The notes below the pieces were generated by a model. It made no database searches and was not told where the DNA came from. It worked only from the letters and a program-made list of their open reading frames with translations. Positions 389 through 8,079 of a stretch of 8,152 nucleotides of DNA are shown here, piece after piece; position 1 is the stretch's first letter, and each line of letters starts with the position of its first letter. The translations under genes and the position numbers were made by a program. Origin of the DNA: a bacterium (GTDB taxonomy: Bacteria; SZUA-182; DTGQ01); the NCBI GenBank assembly GCA_023512255.1, contig JAILZY010000130.1, positions 1 to 8,152 on the forward strand, written 5' to 3'.

Positions 389-612
389 ATCTAAACCCTA
401 GATCCGGGACACGATTTTTGAAATTTAAAAATTCCCATTAAATTAGGTCAATCTTACCATTTACCCTAATGGGTGAAGACAATTTGGCTTATCCGTTTGA
501 GAATTATGGCCAATAATAAAGTATTCACGGATTTAAAATAAATATCGAGGAAGGAGATTCGATTAATCCTCACCAAAGAAGCAATAACCATAAGGAGAGT
601 GTTGGCCAGAAA

Positions 613-1614
613 GTGAATAGTAACCTTCTCTTTCCTATTCGATACGTTGAGATAGAAAAATTTGATCTCCAGCATCAGCCCTATATCATTCGCTATCCAT
701 TTGCTCTACATGGCGAGGGAGCTACGGCTGTCTGGCTGGAAGAGCTGATTAGCTCTATTAGACGCTTTGGTCTTCTTTCGCCTCTTATAGTCCATGTTGG
801 GAAAGAAGATAGGGGCTTTATCATTCATGGAGTAAGGCGTTTTTTGGCCTGTCAGGCCCTAGGCTGGACCAGCCTACCCTGTCGGGTTATTCCGTCCGAC
901 AAAGCGCCTTCCGAGCTCTATCAACTTAGTTTGTCGATTTTTCTCAGCCATCATAAGCCAAACGTCATGGAGCAGGCCAGAATTATCCAAAGGCTTCAAA
1001 CCCTTCTCCCGCAGGAGGTGATTATTCAGGAGTTTTTGCCTCGGCTTGGGCTTTCGCCCCAGCGAAAAGTGCTTGAGCGGATAAGCCAACTTGCTGGGCT
1101 AGAGGATGAGATTGCTGAACATCTGGCCCTTGGAGAAACAGACCCTCAGCTTGGCTGGCGGCTCATTAAGCTTACCCCTTCTTCGGCCAGACTGGCCATG
1201 CATCGCTTTTTGCGCAAGCTCCCCTTCACCTTGAGTCAGCAGTTTGAGATTGTCGAATATGTACAGGAGATCGCCCACAGGGAGCAGCGTTCGGTTGAGG
1301 ATTTGCTTGGGGCACAGGCAGTGCTGGAGCTTTTTGCCTCTGATCTTGATCAGCGGCAAAAAGCCAATGCCGTTCGGCTCTTTTGGCGTAGCAGGCGCTA
1401 TCCAAGACTGACTGCCCTTGAGGAGGAGTTTAACCAGCAGAAAAAAGCGCTTCGGCTGCCGGAGCATCTTGAGCTTTATCCGCCGCATAACTTTGAGCAC
1501 GGAAGCTATAAGTTTGAACTAAAGTTTGCTGACCTGGCCGAATTGCGGCAAAAACTGAAATTTTTAAATAATTTGATATCTTGTGAAAAATTTAAAAATA
1601 TTATCAAATCATAA
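613..1614 (+). CDS. ParB/Spo0J-like nuclease-fold protein
   Basis: 333-residue protein with an N-terminal ParB/Spo0J-type fold (about residues 4-95). The pattern LISSIRRFGLLSPLIV (45-60), a strand pair, then HGVRRFLACQALGW (72-85) and LPCRVIP corresponds to the family's 'GERR' box, with Val replacing the usual Glu. Residues about 136-190 (FLPRLGLSPQRKVLERISQL... then AEHLALGETDPQLGWRLIKL) resemble the ParB helix-turn-helix, so DNA binding is plausible. The C-terminal third is not recognised, and its last 18 residues are encoded by very AT-rich DNA. It starts with GTG; AAGGAG lies at 592-597, 15 nt upstream, which is longer than ideal. The frame is open back to 520 without an ATG, so the start is uncertain. 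There is no ParA partner; the next gene is an SPL-like radical SAM protein 26 nt downstream, which argues against ordinary chromosome partitioning. Confidence 0.8.
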   Translation: MNSNLLFPIRYVEIEKFDLQHQPYIIRYPFALHGEGATAVWLEELISSIRRFGLLSPLIVHVGKEDRGFIIHGVRRFLACQALGWTSLPCRVIPSDKAPSELYQLSLSIFLSHHKPNVMEQARIIQRLQTLLPQEVIIQEFLPRLGLSPQRKVLERISQLAGLEDEIAEHLALGETDPQLGWRLIKLTPSSARLAMHRFLRKLPFTLSQQFEIVEYVQEIAHREQRSVEDLLGAQAVLELFASDLDQRQKANAVRLFWRSRRYPRLTALEEEFNQQKKALRLPEHLELYPPHNFEHGSYKFELKFADLAELRQKLKFLNNLISCEKFKNIIKS

Positions 1615-1640
1615 TCTACCTAATCTGCCAAGAGCTGATC

Positions 1641-2717
1641 ATGCCTCCATATCTGCCAAAAAGAATTATTATTAGCCCACAGCTTTCCTCATCCTCTCCG
1701 CTGGTTGAAAGTATTCTCCGCCATGCTCCTTGCGCTCAGGTGGAATATAGGAAAATCGATCAGGATTGCCTTCATCTGCTCACCGCGGATGATCTTGTGG
1801 TAACTCGGCATCAGGGCAGTTTCTATAAGCCCTGCCCCGGCACTCAGCACTATCTTTGCTGCCAGTATAAGATTTTGCACATTGGCGCAAACTGCCCTCT
1901 GTCCTGCACTTATTGTATCCTGCAAGCTTACCTGGACCATCCGGCCTTGATTGTCCATGCTAACGTGGAAGAGATGCTGTCAGAACTAGATGAGCTTTTT
2001 TTTCGCTTCCCCTCAAGTTTTTTTCGGATTGGTACCGGTGAGCTTACCGATAGCTTAGTGCTGGACCACCTGACTGGGCTGTCAACTATCCTCGTCCCAT
2101 ATTTTGCCGCCCAAAAAAATGCCTGCCTGGAGCTTAAGACCAAGACCACCAATGTTGGCCATCTGAAAGACCTAGATCACAGGGGAAAAACCATTGTAGC
2201 TTGGTCATTGAATTCGGCCAGTGTGGTCTGTCGGGAAGAGCTTGGCGCACCCTCGGTTGAGGAGCGGCTGCTGGCAGCCAGAGCCTGTCAGGAGTGGGGA
2301 TATCGGCTGGCCTTTCACTTTGATCCTATTATCTATTATCCAGGCTGGGAAAAAGAGTATCAAGAAACCATAGAGCAGCTTTTTTCCACCATTAAGTCAT
2401 CTCGGATTGCTTGGATCAGCCTGGGCTGCTTTCGGTATCTGCCTCGGCTAAAGCCGATCATTCAGGAAAAATTCCACCATAGCCGGATTATCTATGAGGA
2501 GTTTATCCAGGGGCTTGACGGGAAGATGCGATATTTGGAAATCCTGCGCCAGCAGATCTATGCCAATATGGTTCGATGGATCAGGCAGAGGGCTCCTGAG
2601 TGTTTTCTGTATCTTTGTATGGAAAGCCCTAAGGTATGGCGAAACAGTTTAGGATTTGCTCCGGCTAGCAATCAGGAGCTTCAATCATGGCTTGATCAGC
2701 GTGGCCGCAATTTTTGA
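1641..2717 (+). CDS. Spore photoproduct lyase-family radical SAM protein
   Basis: 358 residues, close to the usual SPL length. The radical SAM cluster motif is Cys85-x3-Cys89-x2-Cys92 in IGANCPLSCTYC, the CX3CX2C spacing that should bind a [4Fe-4S] cluster and S-adenosylmethionine. The upstream segment HQGSFYKPCPGTQHYLCC and the downstream segments RIGTGELTDSLVLDHL (129-144), LELKTKTTNV (163-172) and RLAFHFDPII (222-231) follow the SPL-type layout. Bacillus SPL uses a cysteine after the cluster motif (about 141) as hydrogen donor. The aligned segment here reads GELTDS with no Cys, so repair of spore photoproduct should not be assumed. The ATG at 1641 has only a weak AGAG upstream, and the gap to the ParB-like gene is 26 nt, so co-transcription is likely. 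No sporulation genes are seen. Family assignment is firm; substrate is unknown. Confidence 0.85.
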   Translation: MPPYLPKRIIISPQLSSSSPLVESILRHAPCAQVEYRKIDQDCLHLLTADDLVVTRHQGSFYKPCPGTQHYLCCQYKILHIGANCPLSCTYCILQAYLDHPALIVHANVEEMLSELDELFFRFPSSFFRIGTGELTDSLVLDHLTGLSTILVPYFAAQKNACLELKTKTTNVGHLKDLDHRGKTIVAWSLNSASVVCREELGAPSVEERLLAARACQEWGYRLAFHFDPIIYYPGWEKEYQETIEQLFSTIKSSRIAWISLGCFRYLPRLKPIIQEKFHHSRIIYEEFIQGLDGKMRYLEILRQQIYANMVRWIRQRAPECFLYLCMESPKVWRNSLGFAPASNQELQSWLDQRGRNF

Positions 2718-2766
2718 AGGCCGTATTAACTAGAAATTATTCGAAAAGCCGGGCTAGCTCCAATTT

Positions 2767-4365
2767 TCAATTTTCGGACTCATCCATTTGATAGACCTCA
2801 AAGCTGATATCAGGGAAAAGGTTATCGGCCCTTTCTATACTCTCAAGCCAGTCGGTGTCAATAGAGCCAGCCAGGACCTGATGACAGATACGGTTAAATT
2901 GCTCAAGGTGGGCAATGGTGCGCCTTATAGCGTATTGGACACAGGTTTTGTTATGGATGATAAAGGCCCAGTCACTCCCCTGGGCCAGCAGGAGTTCACG
3001 GCTGGCCTGATTGAGAGCCCTTCGCACCTCAGCATTGCTGCCGGCAAACCGCGCCGCCAAAAACTCCATAAGCTGTGCGGCCTTGAACAGAGGAGGATAG
3101 ATCCATTTATTGGTGCTATTGAGCCACATCTCATTATACCCTTTCCATCCCCAACTGGAAGCGGCAGGCTGGACAACCTGATTGATGGGAAATCTTTCCA
3201 GATATTCCGAGGGAGTGATCATCCTGAGCGAGCCCCCACTGGCCGCGATCTCCCGAATCAGGAAGTTGAGCCAGTCAGGTCCTTCATACCACCAGTGGCC
3301 AAATAGTTCTGCGTCGTAGGGAGCAACAAATAGAGGGGGGCGATCCATCTGCCGACTTAGGAAAAGGCTGTAGCTTTCATGGCTGCGAAAGCAATCCCTG
3401 GCGTGCTCTCTGGCTCTGGCTAGAGCTTTTGGTGGATGGTAAAAATCCTTGTGCCTGCCAGATCCGGTAATCCGATAATATTTTATCCCAGTATCAACCC
3501 TCAGATTCTGATGGAGGTATGGCCTGATATACTCATAGTCAAGGTCATGGCCAACATCACGGTAAAATTCCCGATAATCAGGATCCGCCGGATACCCCTC
3601 CTGGGCACTCCACACTTGCCTGGCTGACCTTTGATCACGTCCGAAAGCAGCTACTCCTGACGGGCAATAGACAGGAGCATAGACCAAATACTTGGGCCGA
3701 GGGTGAGCATAGGCAAGCCCGTGGGTATCTAAAAAAAAGAATCGCAGGCCAAAAGAGCGCAGTAGCTGGTCAAGACCGGGATAGTAACCACACTCAGGCA
3801 GCCAAATGCCGCGAGAGGTTTGTCCAAACACCTTCTGATAATAATCTAGTGCTACGGCAATCTGGGCCCTTACCGAGGATGGGTTCATCTTTAAGAGGGG
3901 CAGATATCCGTGCGTTGCCGGACAGGTAATAATCTCAAGCTTCCCCAGGGTCTGAAAATGGGAGAAGGCCGAGAGGAGGTTTCGCTCATACCTTTGTTGA
4001 AAAAGGCGCTTATTGGTCAGAAATTTTTCATGGTATAGGGAAGATAGAGGCAGAAGTTCCTGATGGTGCCTATTTCTTAGAATCTCTTTTTCTGCCAGTT
4101 CTATAAGCCTGTCCAGATACCGAATAAATCTTTCCTGAAGGAGTGGATCAACGAGCATGGCCATCAGGGTAGGGCTTAGACTTAAGGTAAGCCGAAAATC
4201 CACCCCTTCCTCAACCAGATTCTCCAGTACTTGAAGCAGGGGGAGATAACTCTCATTGATGGCCTCAAACAACCAGCGCTCCTCCAGGCATTCATCCTGT
4301 TCAGGATGTCGGACAAAGGGGAGATGGGCATGGAGAATCAAGCAAAAATAGGCCCGCGACTCCAT
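2767..4365 (-). CDS. GH57 1,4-alpha-glucan branching enzyme
   Basis: 532 residues, matching bacterial GH57 branching enzymes (about 520-530). It transfers alpha-1,4 glucan segments to alpha-1,6 positions in glycogen synthesis, in the cytoplasm; no signal peptide is seen. The family motifs appear in order: HAHLPFVRHPE (12-22), ATHGYLPLL (150-158), GIWLPECGYYPG with the predicted nucleophile Glu191, GVAAFGRD in the mobile-loop region (237-244), PYDAELFGHWWYEGPDWL with the predicted acid/base Asp351, and SSWGWKGYNEMWLN (403-416). The C-terminal helical domain carries LLLAQGSDWAFIIHNKTCVQYA, also typical. The layout matches the Thermococcus TK1436 type, and all key residues are present. The ATG directly follows the TAA of the DUF4912 gene, with GGAG 5 nt upstream (4371-4374), implying coupled translation. 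It converges on the SPL-like gene across 49 nt, in which I see no clear terminator. Confidence 0.95.
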   Translation of the reverse strand: MESRAYFCLILHAHLPFVRHPEQDECLEERWLFEAINESYLPLLQVLENLVEEGVDFRLTLSLSPTLMAMLVDPLLQERFIRYLDRLIELAEKEILRNRHHQELLPLSSLYHEKFLTNKRLFQQRYERNLLSAFSHFQTLGKLEIITCPATHGYLPLLKMNPSSVRAQIAVALDYYQKVFGQTSRGIWLPECGYYPGLDQLLRSFGLRFFFLDTHGLAYAHPRPKYLVYAPVYCPSGVAAFGRDQRSARQVWSAQEGYPADPDYREFYRDVGHDLDYEYIRPYLHQNLRVDTGIKYYRITGSGRHKDFYHPPKALARAREHARDCFRSHESYSLFLSRQMDRPPLFVAPYDAELFGHWWYEGPDWLNFLIREIAASGGSLRMITPSEYLERFPINQVVQPAASSWGWKGYNEMWLNSTNKWIYPPLFKAAQLMEFLAARFAGSNAEVRRALNQASRELLLAQGSDWAFIIHNKTCVQYAIRRTIAHLEQFNRICHQVLAGSIDTDWLESIERADNLFPDISFEVYQMDESEN

Positions 4366-5613
4366 TTAATCTCCGCTTGTTCTGATTTTTTGAAACCAGA
4401 TAGGAATAAATTCGCGCACCTCTCCCCCTTGCGGCAACTGGGCTCGTAAACAAATCCAGTGTTTGCCCTGACGGCCAAGGTTTAGACGCCAGGAAAAGCT
4501 CCCGTCTGGATGAACCGGAACGGCATCCTCACCAATATAAATAGCCACTCCTGGTTGGGTGCGTCCATAGATTACAAGATCAAGGTCATACTGGAAAGAG
4601 GCCTCAAGACGCGAGGAGGCCGCTTTTTCTGAATGGCGAATATCCCCCCTCGAATAACTGCTCAAGGCAGCAGAAGAGAGGATGCTAATTGGGCTGCCGA
4701 AGAAGTCTCCAAGCTCTAGGCTCGAGAGGCTGCTCGGCAGATTATCTGAGGCTACGAAAGATGAGCCGAAAGAGGAGCTGCTTAAGCTGCTAAGGCTAGC
4801 TAGGCTACTCCACTCCGGTGCGCTCAAGCCTTCCTGTTCTCTTGCTTCAGAGAAAGCAGCCTCTGTGGGGATAAGGCCCTCAGGCTCTCTGGATTCCTTA
4901 CCCTGGGCCGCCTCATACTGGCCAGCAGGTGCTCCTTCCAGCCTTGTTATCTCCGCCGCTTTCTTGGGCTGGTGTTGAGACAACAGGTGGCGATAATACT
5001 CTTCCACCATTTCCTGACTGATGGGGTATTTTGAAGATGGCCTTTGGGCCAAAAGCTCTTCAGAGCTGATGAGGCTCACGGTTTCGTATTCGCCGAGAAC
5101 CTTCATCCACTTCTCCTGGCACTGAGGTGAGGAGATGGTATTTTTCGGAGTTTTGACCACATTTGACCGTTTGATGACATAAAATTCACCCGAGGCTAGA
5201 GATTTCAATCCCAATTCGGCGAAATAGAGCCTATCTGATCGGGGAACCTCTATATACCAGTCATTTTTCCATCCCTCAACCGGAAGATCAAAATATGAGC
5301 CAAATTGCTGCCTACCATTATCTTCTTCACCTTCAATTATCCGCAAGGTAAGCTGGCTATTTTGAAAAATATCCTTCTTTTGCGCACCTATGGCGGCCAA
5401 ATCTTCTGGCCACACTTCCCAGCAGGCGTAGAGATGCCTTGGATCAACCTCCAAAAGGAGCAAGAGAGGTGAAATCCACTCTGTAGATAGATCTGCCCTC
5501 TCCTTTGCTGGATAAGAATTTTGGCTATTGGCCGTTGCATGACTTGCGTGCATTTCACCGCTTTCTCGGGTAGCTTCCTTCCTAAACTCGGGCTTAAGTG
5601 GTTTCCTTGCCAA
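4366..5613 (-). CDS. DUF4912 domain protein with Ser-rich linker
   Basis: 415 residues if translation starts at the TTG at 5613. Residues about 44-165 match DUF4912 (SPLLLLLEVDPRHLYACWEVWPEDL, then QLTLRIIEGEE and DWYIEVPRSDRLYFAELGL). Residues about 344-395 match the conserved C-terminal part (DLVIYGRTQPGVAIYIGEDAVPVHPDGSFSWRL), probably a beta-sandwich. Between them a charged stretch (about 210-265) leads into a strongly Ser/Leu-rich linker (about 268-320). No signal peptide or membrane segment is seen. DUF4912 has no established biochemical role but is often found beside GH57 genes, and here it is immediately followed by the branching enzyme. The TTG has no good ribosome binding site and lies inside repeat copy 2. 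The first in-frame ATG is residue 21 (5553), preceded by GGTG, and the frame closes at 5638-5640. The N-terminus is therefore uncertain. Confidence 0.87.
   Translation of the reverse strand: MARKPLKPEFRKEATRESGEMHASHATANSQNSYPAKERADLSTEWISPLLLLLEVDPRHLYACWEVWPEDLAAIGAQKKDIFQNSQLTLRIIEGEEDNGRQQFGSYFDLPVEGWKNDWYIEVPRSDRLYFAELGLKSLASGEFYVIKRSNVVKTPKNTISSPQCQEKWMKVLGEYETVSLISSEELLAQRPSSKYPISQEMVEEYYRHLLSQHQPKKAAEITRLEGAPAGQYEAAQGKESREPEGLIPTEAAFSEAREQEGLSAPEWSSLASLSSLSSSSFGSSFVASDNLPSSLSSLELGDFFGSPISILSSAALSSYSRGDIRHSEKAASSRLEASFQYDLDLVIYGRTQPGVAIYIGEDAVPVHPDGSFSWRLNLGRQGKHWICLRAQLPQGGEVREFIPIWFQKIRTSGD
4371..4374 (-). promoter_or_regulatory. Ribosome binding site for the branching enzyme
   Basis: On the minus strand GGAG lies 5 nt before the ATG at 4365. 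It sits within the last codons of the DUF4912 gene, whose TAA abuts the ATG. This supports the chosen start and translational coupling of the two genes. Confidence 0.7.
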
Positions 5614-5801
5614 ATGCGTAACACAAGTGGGAGCGAATCAATTATCCTGAATCCAGAGAGAACACCTGAAAAGCTTTGTATTCCAGAATGTTAACTCACA
5701 CATTTTGTGAAAATTATGGCATAAGGATTACGCTATCAATTGTAGGTGCAGACCTTGTGCCCGCCCAGCCTTGTGCACTCTATTAGCGAAAAGACCACTA
5801 A
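5604..5801 (+). repeat. Dispersed palindromic repeat, copy 2 (expanded)
   Basis: Same orientation as copy 1. The left end carries the shared 13-mer TGCGTAACACAAG (5615-5627). The right end (5741-5801) ends in TTAGCGAAAAGACCACTAA, nearly as in copy 1. The 21 bases at 5741-5761 are identical to the reverse complement of 7425-7445 in copy 3. Aligned with copy 3, this copy carries about 83 extra bases between two ATTA tetramers (5641-5644 and 5727-5730), suggesting either a secondary insertion or a deletion in copy 3. The element fills the gap between two collinear genes: it ends 7 nt from the GH57-like stop codon and overlaps the TTG start of the DUF4912 gene. Confidence 0.78.
5713..5739 (-). 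promoter_or_regulatory. Weak candidate promoter for DUF4912 and branching enzyme
   Basis: On the minus strand a TTGATA (5739-5734) is followed after 15 nt by CATAAT (5718-5713). Each matches the sigma-70 consensus at five of six positions, but the spacing is short. It lies inside repeat copy 2, partly in the extra 83-base segment, and would give a leader of about 95 nt. Reported as a possibility only. Confidence 0.22.
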
Positions 5802-5808
5802 GTAAGGT

Positions 5809-7050
5809 TTACCATACCTGCCTTTTTACCTCCTTCAGGAGGATGAGAGCTGGCTTTATGTTATCATAGACTTTTGCCGCCCAGGATTCATCCTCTTCCG
5901 AGAAATAGCAATCGGTTTGAGATCTCAGCAGCCACTTCTGAACCCTTTCTAACAGGTCAGCCAAATCTACTACCTGCCCCTGGTGGAGGCAGCGGTCTGT
6001 TTTCTGCAATAGGGCTGCCCTTACCTCATGATATTGCTGACTCAAACGCCAGACCTCTTCAATCGCCCGCTTGCGTTCAGATGGGCTGCATCTGCCAATT
6101 GAAGCAAAATGGCCATTCTCTTGGAAATCCGCAATGCGGATATTTTCTACTTGAAGAGTTAACGGCGGCCGCATTTTCATCTCAGGCACAAGTTCTCTAA
6201 GAAGCACACTCCGTGGTGCAATCGCAGACTTGTATCTCCACTTAAGATAAGGGGAAAAATATCCCTCCCAAAACTCGCAGTCTTCGGGCAGGCTGCTAAT
6301 CTTTCGACCGATCAGATCATCAATGACCAGCCAGTCAACAATGAGCGAATCTTGCTGCCCAGCCGCAAGACTTGCTCCATCCCTAGACGGCAGGGCCGCT
6401 GGTAGCTTGGTTGGGCTGTCCCCTGCCCTAAGATGATCGAAGCCATTACTGATAAATACAGCACCAATTTCGGCTTGACGATAAATCAGGCTCCCGATCG
6501 AAGAATACCGATCATGGCCACAGCAGTTTCCCACTGCCTCTTTGATTTTTGGTTTTACTGCTGATCTATCCAGAATAACATATTCATATCCATACTTTTT
6601 GAGGATAGGTATCATCTGCGGACAAAAGCCCTTGGCTGAGGGGAAAAAACCTCTTGGCTCCTGCCCGAAAACCTCCCTGGCTATCTCCTTCCCTTGGGCA
6701 ATCTGCGCATCCCAATCTACAGTCGGAATCAGGGTAAACAGGGGATGAGAGTATCCAAGGCCGATAATTTCGACATTCTTTGACTCTCGGCATCCATTCA
6801 GCATGGATGGAATATCAATAATTTTGCGGCAAGCATCAATAACTTCCCTGGAGAGAAGCTCCTCAAGAAGGACTCCTGAGAACCCAACATGGATTTTGAG
6901 ACAATCTTGATAGCTATTTAGATACTTCAATGGCATCTGATAGCTGTCGATTATTTGCAGAAGCCTTCCCATCTGATGTTCGACCAGCGTATTCAAGGTA
7001 TCAGGAGGCTGGTGCATAAGGAAACCAAGAGCATGACATACCCTGGTCAT
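5809..7050 (-). CDS. Divergent GH57-fold protein, nucleophile apparently absent
   Basis: 413 residues. The N-terminus ALGFLMHQPP (7-16) corresponds to the GH57 strand that carries the conserved HQPP. VEIIGLGYSHPLFTLIPTVDWDAQI (93-117) matches the 'GxxHPL.P' region, and GFFPSAKGFCPQMIPILKKYGYEYVILD (134-161) matches the nucleophile strand. In typical members this last segment reads PxE; here it is P137-S-A139-K, so the catalytic Glu is replaced. I also find no clear motif-4 Asp segment comparable to the branching enzyme's PYDAELFGHWW. The C-terminal part is charged and probably helical. No signal peptide is seen. The ATG at 7050 has GGAG 11 nt upstream with a purine-rich spacer. It is the first of three collinear minus-strand genes, separated from the DUF4912 gene by repeat copy 2. 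It could be a pseudoenzyme, a regulator, or an enzyme with different chemistry. Confidence 0.75.
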   Translation of the reverse strand: MTRVCHALGFLMHQPPDTLNTLVEHQMGRLLQIIDSYQMPLKYLNSYQDCLKIHVGFSGVLLEELLSREVIDACRKIIDIPSMLNGCRESKNVEIIGLGYSHPLFTLIPTVDWDAQIAQGKEIAREVFGQEPRGFFPSAKGFCPQMIPILKKYGYEYVILDRSAVKPKIKEAVGNCCGHDRYSSIGSLIYRQAEIGAVFISNGFDHLRAGDSPTKLPAALPSRDGASLAAGQQDSLIVDWLVIDDLIGRKISSLPEDCEFWEGYFSPYLKWRYKSAIAPRSVLLRELVPEMKMRPPLTLQVENIRIADFQENGHFASIGRCSPSERKRAIEEVWRLSQQYHEVRAALLQKTDRCLHQGQVVDLADLLERVQKWLLRSQTDCYFSEEDESWAAKVYDNIKPALILLKEVKRQVW

Positions 7051-7186: not shown

Positions 7187-7385
7187 ATACTTTTCACTCT
7201 TTAGCTGATCCCTTGACACTCATAACCCCTTCCCTTATCAAGAGGCCATTTCAAGAGACCATTTGAAAAAGATCCGACAGGAAGCAGCGGATATAATTGA
7301 TTTTAAGATATTTAAAAATTATTGTCAATAAATAACAAGAAAGGTTTTAGATGTTCCTTATCTTTCTCCCCCCTATTTTTGGCAT

Positions 7386-7499
7386 TTAGTAGTTTTTTTG
7401 CCAATAAATTGCGCAGGCTGCGGCGGCACAAGGTCTGCACCTACATTATTATTGCGTAATTGATCCGCTGCGCACTTGTGTTACGCACTTAACGAAAAG
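7386..7499 (-). repeat. Dispersed palindromic repeat, copy 3 (inverted)
   Basis: Opposite orientation to copies 1 and 2. Read on the minus strand it starts CTTTTCGTTAAGTGCG, contains the shared 13-mer TGCGTAACACAAG (7487-7475), and ends with CCGCCGCAGCCTGCGCA (within 7411-7427), a degenerate GGCAAAAAAAC and ACTACTAA. It shares a 21-base identity with copy 2 (7425-7445), and similarity extends on both sides. It can fold because TGCGCAGCGG near the left pairs with CCGC and TGCGCA near the right. At 114 nt it matches copy 1 in length and may represent the unexpanded form of copy 2. Confidence 0.75.
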
Positions 7500-7671: not shown

Positions 7672-8079
7672 TTAGATGAATTTTTTCCTAATCTTAACTA
7701 GCCCAGCCAGCCCAGATAAGAAAAGGAAACCTGCACCTGGAATAGGAACCGGTGAGGATGGATAGGTTGGAGTTACCGGTACATTGGCTTCTATCTGGAG
7801 CAGATATGGCCCACTTCCTATACCGTAACTACCTTGATGGGTATTAATACCTGCAATCGCATCATCAATAGAAAGGTAAAAATCAGAGACCGCGGTTACA
7901 TAATTGCCAGCAGATAAGTCTAATGCAATATATGAATTCCACCAACCATAGGCAGATGGGACACCGTGATCATCATCATGAGTGATATAATCTGAGGCAT
8001 CGAGGGAGCCATCATTATAAAACAGGTACATATATGGATCAAAATTATCGGTGAAGGTTTGAATTATTGTATAACTAGT
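7672..8079 (-). pseudogene. 5'-truncated DVUA0089/FDP-family PEP-CTERM-type protein
   Basis: The C-terminus is a sorting signal of the PEP-CTERM class: VPIPG, a hydrophobic segment GFLFLSGLAGLV, then the basic tail KIRKKFI. Such proteins are exported and processed by an exosortase. Before it, SYIALDLSAGNYVTAVSDFYLSIDDA, GPYLLQIEAN and a Pro/Thr/Ser linker match the DVUA0089 (FDP) family. The first ATG in frame (8031) would give 119 residues, but the upstream codons still read TIIQTFTDNFDPY, containing the family's FDP motif, so the gene began further upstream. The frame ends at a stop at 8107-8109, with no signal peptide or start, where sequence resembling an insertion-sequence end begins (about 8079). 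I infer an interrupted gene. A short protein from 8031 would lack an export signal. Confidence 0.7.

Follow-up and report, generated by a model that had tools for sequence, protein, structure and literature searches.

A ParB-like protein, an SPL-fold radical SAM protein and a GT2 glycosyltransferase constitute a conserved, linked gene set in distant, mostly anaerobic bacteria

What does a ParB-like protein do when it is encoded without ParA and directly ahead of a radical SAM protein related to spore photolyase (SPL)? This question is raised by the window analysed here, a stretch of DNA that makes up the entire 8152-base contig C150 in the genome of an uncultured bacterium (Table 1). The initial annotation, made from the sequence alone, proposed an undescribed two-gene system and envisaged CTP or DNA binding by the first protein and a role of the pair in DNA modification, repair or sensing. 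Its reading of the gene order and spacing was borne out, and the two proteins give Pfam matches above the gathering scores. No ParA gene was found within the 8152-base window; the ordinary parA-parB genes of the genome lie on contig C48, adjoining mnmE. Together, these two observations led to the rejection of a partition system.

Table 1. Features of the window, with positions counted from its first base.
Feature	Position	Strand	Basis or remark
AAGGAG, likely ribosome-binding site of the ParB-like gene	592..597	+	sequence; the 15-nt spacing to GTG is long
ParB-like protein, 333 aa, GTG start	613..1614	+	ORF, PF02195, AlphaFold2 model, Noc 7nfu match
ParB-like domains: N-terminal ParB/Srx, ParB/Noc-type middle, family-specific C-terminal half	613..1614	+	
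Pfam ParB_N match, residues 42-92	736..888	+	
ParB box II, GVRR in place of ParB GERR	829..840	+	alignment to canonical ParBs
ParB box III, canonical EN-LQRE-DLN replaced by IF-LSHH-KPN; E, N and R lost	937..963	+	alignment
ParB-like residues 205-275 including the RYP motif (R262, P264); part fused to radical SAM protein in some genomes	1225..1437	+	
Gap between ParB-like and radical SAM genes, 26 nt	1615..1640	+	
SPL-fold radical SAM protein, 358 aa, ATG start	1641..2717	+	ORF, PF20903, AlphaFold2, SPL 4fhf
C65 (1833-1835), C73 (1857-1859) and C74 (1860-1862), three cysteines of the proposed auxiliary Fe-S site	1833..1862	+	
CxxxCxxC (C85, C89, C92) for the SAM-binding [4Fe-4S] cluster	1893..1916	+	invariant, 159/159 sequences
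G131-T-G-E134, GGE-like motif; E134 at the place of the SPL H-donor cysteine (Gt Cys140)	2031..2042	+	
C326, fourth cysteine of the proposed auxiliary site	2616..2618	+	156/159 sequences
Two GH57-family proteins flanking a DUF4912 protein	2767-4365, 4366-5613, 5809-7050	-	first GH57 with branching-enzyme BE_C
Short ORF with weak, below-cut-off PEP-CTERM/VPLPA-CTERM (exosortase-sorted) matches and a fitting C-terminus	7672-8031	-	
Intergenic repeat, ~117 bp	274-395; related pieces 5609-5629, 5741-5801, 7384-7497		GCGTAACACAAG ... GCGAAAAGACCACTAA

The remainder of the window belongs to a narrower context. The GH57 and DUF4912 genes lie downstream of the pair and converge with it, and they are common only to the window's own family and order; a branching enzyme beside the gene pair is retained in the relatives G001, G002 and G004. 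The intergenic repeat occurs in about 40 full or partial copies across the genome and has the appearance of a small repeat of non-autonomous mobile or REP type. A search of Rfam gave no match for an RNA element, and no terminator or promoter signal in the gap between the two genes clearly exceeded shuffled sequences. That short gap, together with the 4 nt by which the genes overlap in 14 or more other genomes, fits co-transcription and translational coupling.

Conservation of the pair was assessed in a sample of 60 and then 386 genomes (260 families), with each protein or its profile as the query. To count as ParB-like rather than as an ordinary ParB, a protein had to give a profile match reaching the C-terminal region, which ordinary ParBs leave unmatched, while radical SAM family members were accepted at E values up to 1e-80. 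Among the 386 genomes, the ParB-like family was present in 58 and the radical SAM family in 88. Both occurred together in 55 genomes against 13.2 expected (p 1.5e-39), a value to be read as a measure of strength rather than as exact odds because the thresholds were chosen after the lists had been seen and related genomes are not independent. At the level of families, co-occurrence was observed in 40 of the 260, with 10.0 expected. In 52 genomes from 42 families, the radical SAM gene is immediately preceded by the ParB-like gene on the same strand, the adjacency in one of these (G351) being taken from coordinates. This neighbourhood corresponds to 52 of the 88 genomes that carry the radical SAM gene, so orthologues of the two genes do not usually occur apart, which is what the initial annotation had named as a refutation. 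The pairing is thus far in excess of chance across distant genomes.

Exceptions and fusions refine this picture. In four further genomes, the radical SAM protein carries, fused to its N-terminus, a piece of the ParB-like protein corresponding to about residues 205-275 of the window protein. These fusions were assigned by reading the sequences, in which helices precede the RYP motif; one of them scored only 23 bits with the profile. When 13 genomes were picked because their genes seemed to be apart, mostly from Desulfobulbaceae and other Desulfobacterota, the ParB-like gene was located elsewhere in 12 of them. About 16 genomes carry the two genes unlinked, and about 13 of the 88 radical SAM genomes are without any ParB-like partner. 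At one locus (L265, G277:C1:288000-302000), a ParB-like gene is present and no radical SAM relative was found in that genome.

Clustering of the neighbouring genes identified a third member, a GT2 glycosyltransferase encoded directly upstream of the pair. In 29 genomes (23 families), it shares the locus of the other genes. The usual gene order is GT2, ParB-like, radical SAM, as seen in relatives of the window (G001 to G004) and also in distant genomes such as G009, G022, G050 and G066. Where the pair is split, the GT2 gene stays beside the ParB-like gene in five genomes; in Desulfobulbaceae, it adjoins the radical SAM gene. A profile of the GT2 protein matched 78 genomes, 63 of which also have the radical SAM gene (17.8 expected), and the ParB-like and GT2 genes occur together in 47 genomes (11.7 expected). 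In the window's own genome, the GT2 gene is on another contig, C113, and was therefore invisible to the initial annotation. By neighbourhood, co-occurrence and fusion, the ParB-like protein, the radical SAM protein and the GT2 glycosyltransferase form one linked system. The proposal of an undescribed system can accordingly be retained as regards a conserved functional unit, with the correction that it has three members rather than two. The open-licence papers searched contained no description of a combination of a ParB-like protein, an SPL-type radical SAM protein and a glycosyltransferase. The superfamily of each protein is known and the enzyme is a variant of SPL; the three-gene set itself appears to be undescribed.

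Besides GT2, PF01048 nucleosidases were the only neighbours that recurred meaningfully across families. They occur in the same gene run in at least six genomes, and one of them passes the cut-off for MTA/SAH nucleosidase. Nucleosidases of this type can clear 5'-deoxyadenosine, a by-product of radical SAM enzymes. Neighbouring purC, ssb and dnaJ genes are confined to one clade. In a further genome (locus L236), a small ORF right after the radical SAM gene resembles, by eye only, a nucleoside deoxyribosyltransferase, hinting at nucleoside chemistry once more.

The radical SAM protein is closely related to SPL in structure and diverges from it in active-site residues. It scores 94.1 bits against the Pfam SPL family (PF20903; gathering score 27) and 110.1 bits against the NCBIfam SPL equivalog TIGR04070, for which the cut-off of 400 is not reached. 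The confident AlphaFold2 model (pLDDT 93.4, pTM 0.93) has the whole SPL fold: the top matches in a fold search were six SPL structures with Z scores of about 35 (4fhf: Z 35.2, rmsd 2.1 over 314 residues), and the next family followed at Z 14.9. The CxxxCxxC motif is unchanged in all 159 aligned sequences on which the residue counts are based. In SPL, Cys141 is the H-donor and Tyr99 the radical-relay tyrosine (PMC3742179). At the position of the former (Cys141 in Bs, Cys140 in Gt), the family has Glu in 157 of the 159 sequences and Gln in two; at that of the latter (Tyr99 in Bs, Tyr98 in Gt), Ile is found in the window protein and in 115 of 159, with Tyr in 16. The Tyr96/97 position of SPL is retained as Y91. 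With its intact motif, its fold and the operon-linked MTA/SAH-type nucleosidases, the SPL-fold protein is very probably a working radical SAM enzyme.

A second set of cysteines sets this family apart. In B. subtilis SPL, the conserved cysteines number only four: Cys141 plus the CxxxCxxC triplet (PMC3742179). In the present family, C65 (155 of 159), C74 and C326 are each found in 153-156 of the 159 sequences, and C73 is found in 138. Of the sequences that lack C73 but retain the other three, all 16 have a cysteine at position 67 or 68, so that a four-cysteine set (C65, C73 or 67/68, C74, C326) is kept in 152 of 159. A metal site built from four cysteines would predict this kind of compensated swap. 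An auxiliary Fe-S site is therefore proposed, and it is likely, judging from this pattern of residues, that C65, C73, C74 and C326 form the cluster site. A second Fe-S site would in turn point to a reaction other than the simple reversal carried out by SPL.

The ParB-like protein has a recognizable N-terminal part and a C-terminal half of its own. PF02195, the ParB N-terminal domain, is matched at E 8e-8 (32.6 bits against a gathering score of 26.3), while in NCBIfam the protein falls below the ParB cut-offs and into no named family. In its AlphaFold2 model (pLDDT 91.5), residues 4-221 match Noc (7nfu, Z 14.0) and also Spo0J, ParB and KorB; the DNA-binding domain of Noc on its site (6y93, Z 8.9) is matched by residues 101-221. 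For residues 222-333, searched as part of the whole model, no solved structure matched with any strength. G53, P57, G73, R76 and E120 are conserved with ParBs. The GERR motif of canonical ParB is GxxR throughout the family, with the loss of E, and box III reads (D/E)N..R in most members and IF..H in the window protein and its close relatives. CTP hydrolysis by the window protein is unlikely given these changes in GERR and box III, and CTP binding, which the ParB fold had suggested, is doubtful for a clade that has lost the ParB box residues. The HTH carries a six-residue insert relative to canonical ParB, and this middle region is neither more basic nor better conserved than the rest of the protein, so DNA binding is supported by the fold alone. 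Moreover, seven of 93 family members are without most of the N-domain, and some consist of the C-terminal half only; DNA binding is therefore not general, as several members are without the HTH or N-domain. The best-conserved residues common to nearly all members, E295, P264 and R262, are in the C-terminal half.

The explanation favoured here, with a probability of roughly 0.4, is that the radical enzyme works with the ParB-like protein as its adaptor and that the GT2 glycosyltransferase acts on the same substrate, perhaps nucleic acid. The ParB-like protein would have been turned into an adaptor whose conserved C-terminal half docks on the radical enzyme, and the ParB N-domain and HTH, where retained, would place the complex on the substrate. 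From the fusions and truncations, such an adaptor role has about even odds. The radical enzyme would install or activate a group, and the GT2 would then glycosylate that group. Nucleic acid is the preferred substrate because the two partner folds both derive from families that act on DNA; it is less than certain given the polysaccharide-like GT2 and the weak conservation of the HTH, and sequential action of the two enzymes on nucleic acid is put forward only tentatively. The nucleic-acid role initially suggested is still inferred from the two folds. SPL chemistry generates a thymine-methyl radical. A more specific version, rather speculative as a whole, would be oxygen-independent hypermodification of nucleic acid in anaerobes, in which the SPL-fold enzyme with its auxiliary cluster might alter a base, the ParB-derived protein might set the sites and the GT2 might glycosylate the product, as an anaerobic parallel to base J.

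Other explanations account for parts of these data. The genes could instead belong to an envelope or metabolite pathway, with a sugar or lipid as the molecule that the GT2 and the radical enzyme would build or decorate, and the ParB-like protein as a present or former regulator of the operon. The G003 GT2 protein contains a PF00535 catalytic domain (127 bits against a cut-off of 23), and its closest named models, although far below cut-off, are of polysaccharide type (TuaG, EpsE, WcaA). KorB and Noc, ParB relatives that appear among the fold matches, act as regulators or at membranes, and an M23 peptidase is encoded near the genes in Desulfobulbaceae. Nevertheless, the loci showed no cluster of polysaccharide genes. 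Loss of the DNA-binding half with continued adjacency would be unexpected in a regulator, as would fusion to the enzyme, and the linkage of the ParB-like protein to the radical enzyme at least equals its linkage to the GT2. Such a pathway is considered unlikely.

Direct-reversal DNA repair, as carried out by SPL, would have C65 as the H donor and the ParB-like protein as the means of delivering the enzyme to DNA. Both the ParB/Noc-type DNA-binding fold and the wide gap in the fold search between SPL and the next family (Z 35 against 15) agree with it. The SPL of Clostridium acetobutylicum uses Cys74 instead of a Cys141-type cysteine (PMC5368176), and C65 aligns with Ser76 of Gt SPL, the residue changed in the engineered S76C mutant, and hence lies at the Cys74 position. 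The missing Cys141 alone does not, therefore, exclude SPL-like repair. Against this reading stand three more near-invariant cysteines that SPL lacks, the Ile found in most members at the Tyr99 position, the NCBIfam SPL score of 110 against 400 and a glycosyltransferase partner for which repair offers no role. Repair of this type is accordingly improbable, and the UV repair function once envisaged for the pair finds no support among the neighbours, in addition to the loss of both Cys141 and Tyr99.

The ParB-like protein, or a protein that it carries, might also be the substrate of the radical enzyme and the GT2. Modification of a protein or peptide would give a reason for the near-invariant E295, P264 and R262, and RiPP-type radical SAM enzymes do appear in the fold list, at background level. 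These RiPP enzyme matches have Z scores below 15, far below those of SPL, and no conserved short precursor-like ORF stood out at the loci in a clustering that covered ORFs from 80-90 aa upwards. This possibility is quite improbable. Finally, a chance arrangement of neighbours, or an orphan partition protein that happens to lie next to an unrelated gene, would agree with the lack of a nearby ParA and with the unlinked genes in about 16 genomes, but the conservation data, with adjacency in 42 families, four fusions and co-occurrence p values of 1e-39 to 1e-18, together with the separate parA-parB of the genome, refute this reading and leave it a negligible probability.

The carriers are distant, mostly anaerobic bacteria. 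Named relatives are mostly Desulfobacterota, including Desulfobulbus, Desulfocapsa, Desulforhopalus, Desulfacinum and Desulforhabdus, and further relatives are found in Zixibacteria, Caldithrix, KSB1, Acidobacteria and Aminicenantes. Among culturable carriers, Desulfobulbus rhabdoformis and D. elongatus have the enzyme and the GT2, and Desulfacinum infernum has the adjacent pair. IMG/VR viral contigs yielded no relative, searches of plasmids and phages found only distant SPLs, and PADLOC defence models gave no match; as none of these searches lent support, a mobile element or defence system was rejected. The distribution fits a function encoded on the chromosome, mostly in single copy. Being of this kind and conserved across families, the system likely performs something routine.

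The wider meaning concerns both proteins of the pair. The SPL fold, known for reversing one spore DNA lesion, extends to a large branch found outside spore formers, in which the active-site residues differ, a second Fe-S site is probable and the partners are constant, and the ParB-like protein offers an example of a ParB protein that may have turned enzyme partner. The identity of the substrate would reveal either a DNA or RNA modification of a new kind or, for glycan chemistry, a novel radical route, and whether this is a new kind of modification system hinges on it.

Among known systems, base J offers an analogy only. In the base J pathway, a thymine hydroxylase with a DNA-binding domain is followed by a GT-A glucosyltransferase. 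The elements in common would be an oxidative enzyme acting on thymine, a part that targets DNA and a GT-A glycosyltransferase; the present set differs in having a non-homologous first enzyme, anaerobic chemistry and no modified base known. Compared with the CTPase clamps ParB, Noc and KorB, the ParB-like protein has the same N-terminal ParB/Srx fold and helical DNA-binding domain fold. Unlike them, it has GxxR for GERR, an insert in the HTH and no ParA, the window clade is without the E-N and R of box III, and the N-domain is missing in several members. The GT2 protein has the catalytic GT-A domain with DxD in common with PF00535 enzymes such as TuaG, EpsE and WcaA-like proteins, but constitutes a subfamily of its own, marked by EIW.RNG..N..K.H.K, CEDYDLWLRI and KRGGHxDQLS, which tracks the radical SAM gene.

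For the radical SAM protein, the closest comparison is SplB (PF20903, TIGR04070), with which it shares the whole fold, CxxxCxxC and the tyrosine at the Tyr96/97 position. It differs from SplB in having Glu134 for Cys140/141, no Tyr98/99 and four extra cysteines, in scoring below the NCBIfam SPL cut-off, and in its ParB-like and GT2 partners. Lipoyl synthase LipA, which has an auxiliary cluster near its N-terminus, likewise has cysteines just ahead of CxxxCxxC, and the cluster proposed here would occupy the same place in the sequence as that of lipoyl synthase. LipA structures align with the radical SAM model from residue 57 on (Z ~14), whereas the cysteine spacing, C326 as the fourth ligand and the SPL fold are different, and the cluster in the present family is a prediction. 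Other SPL-like proteins are found in still other settings. At one locus (L020, 1465-3672, minus strand), a 735-aa protein apparently joins two radical SAM domains, the second of them SPL-like. At another (L019), a different, distant SPL-like protein overlaps the three-Cys-motif partner protein TcmP (TIGR04474, 172 bits; minus-strand genes at 1180-2214 and 2211-3425). Proteins of the SPL type thus seem to have recruited several unrelated partners.
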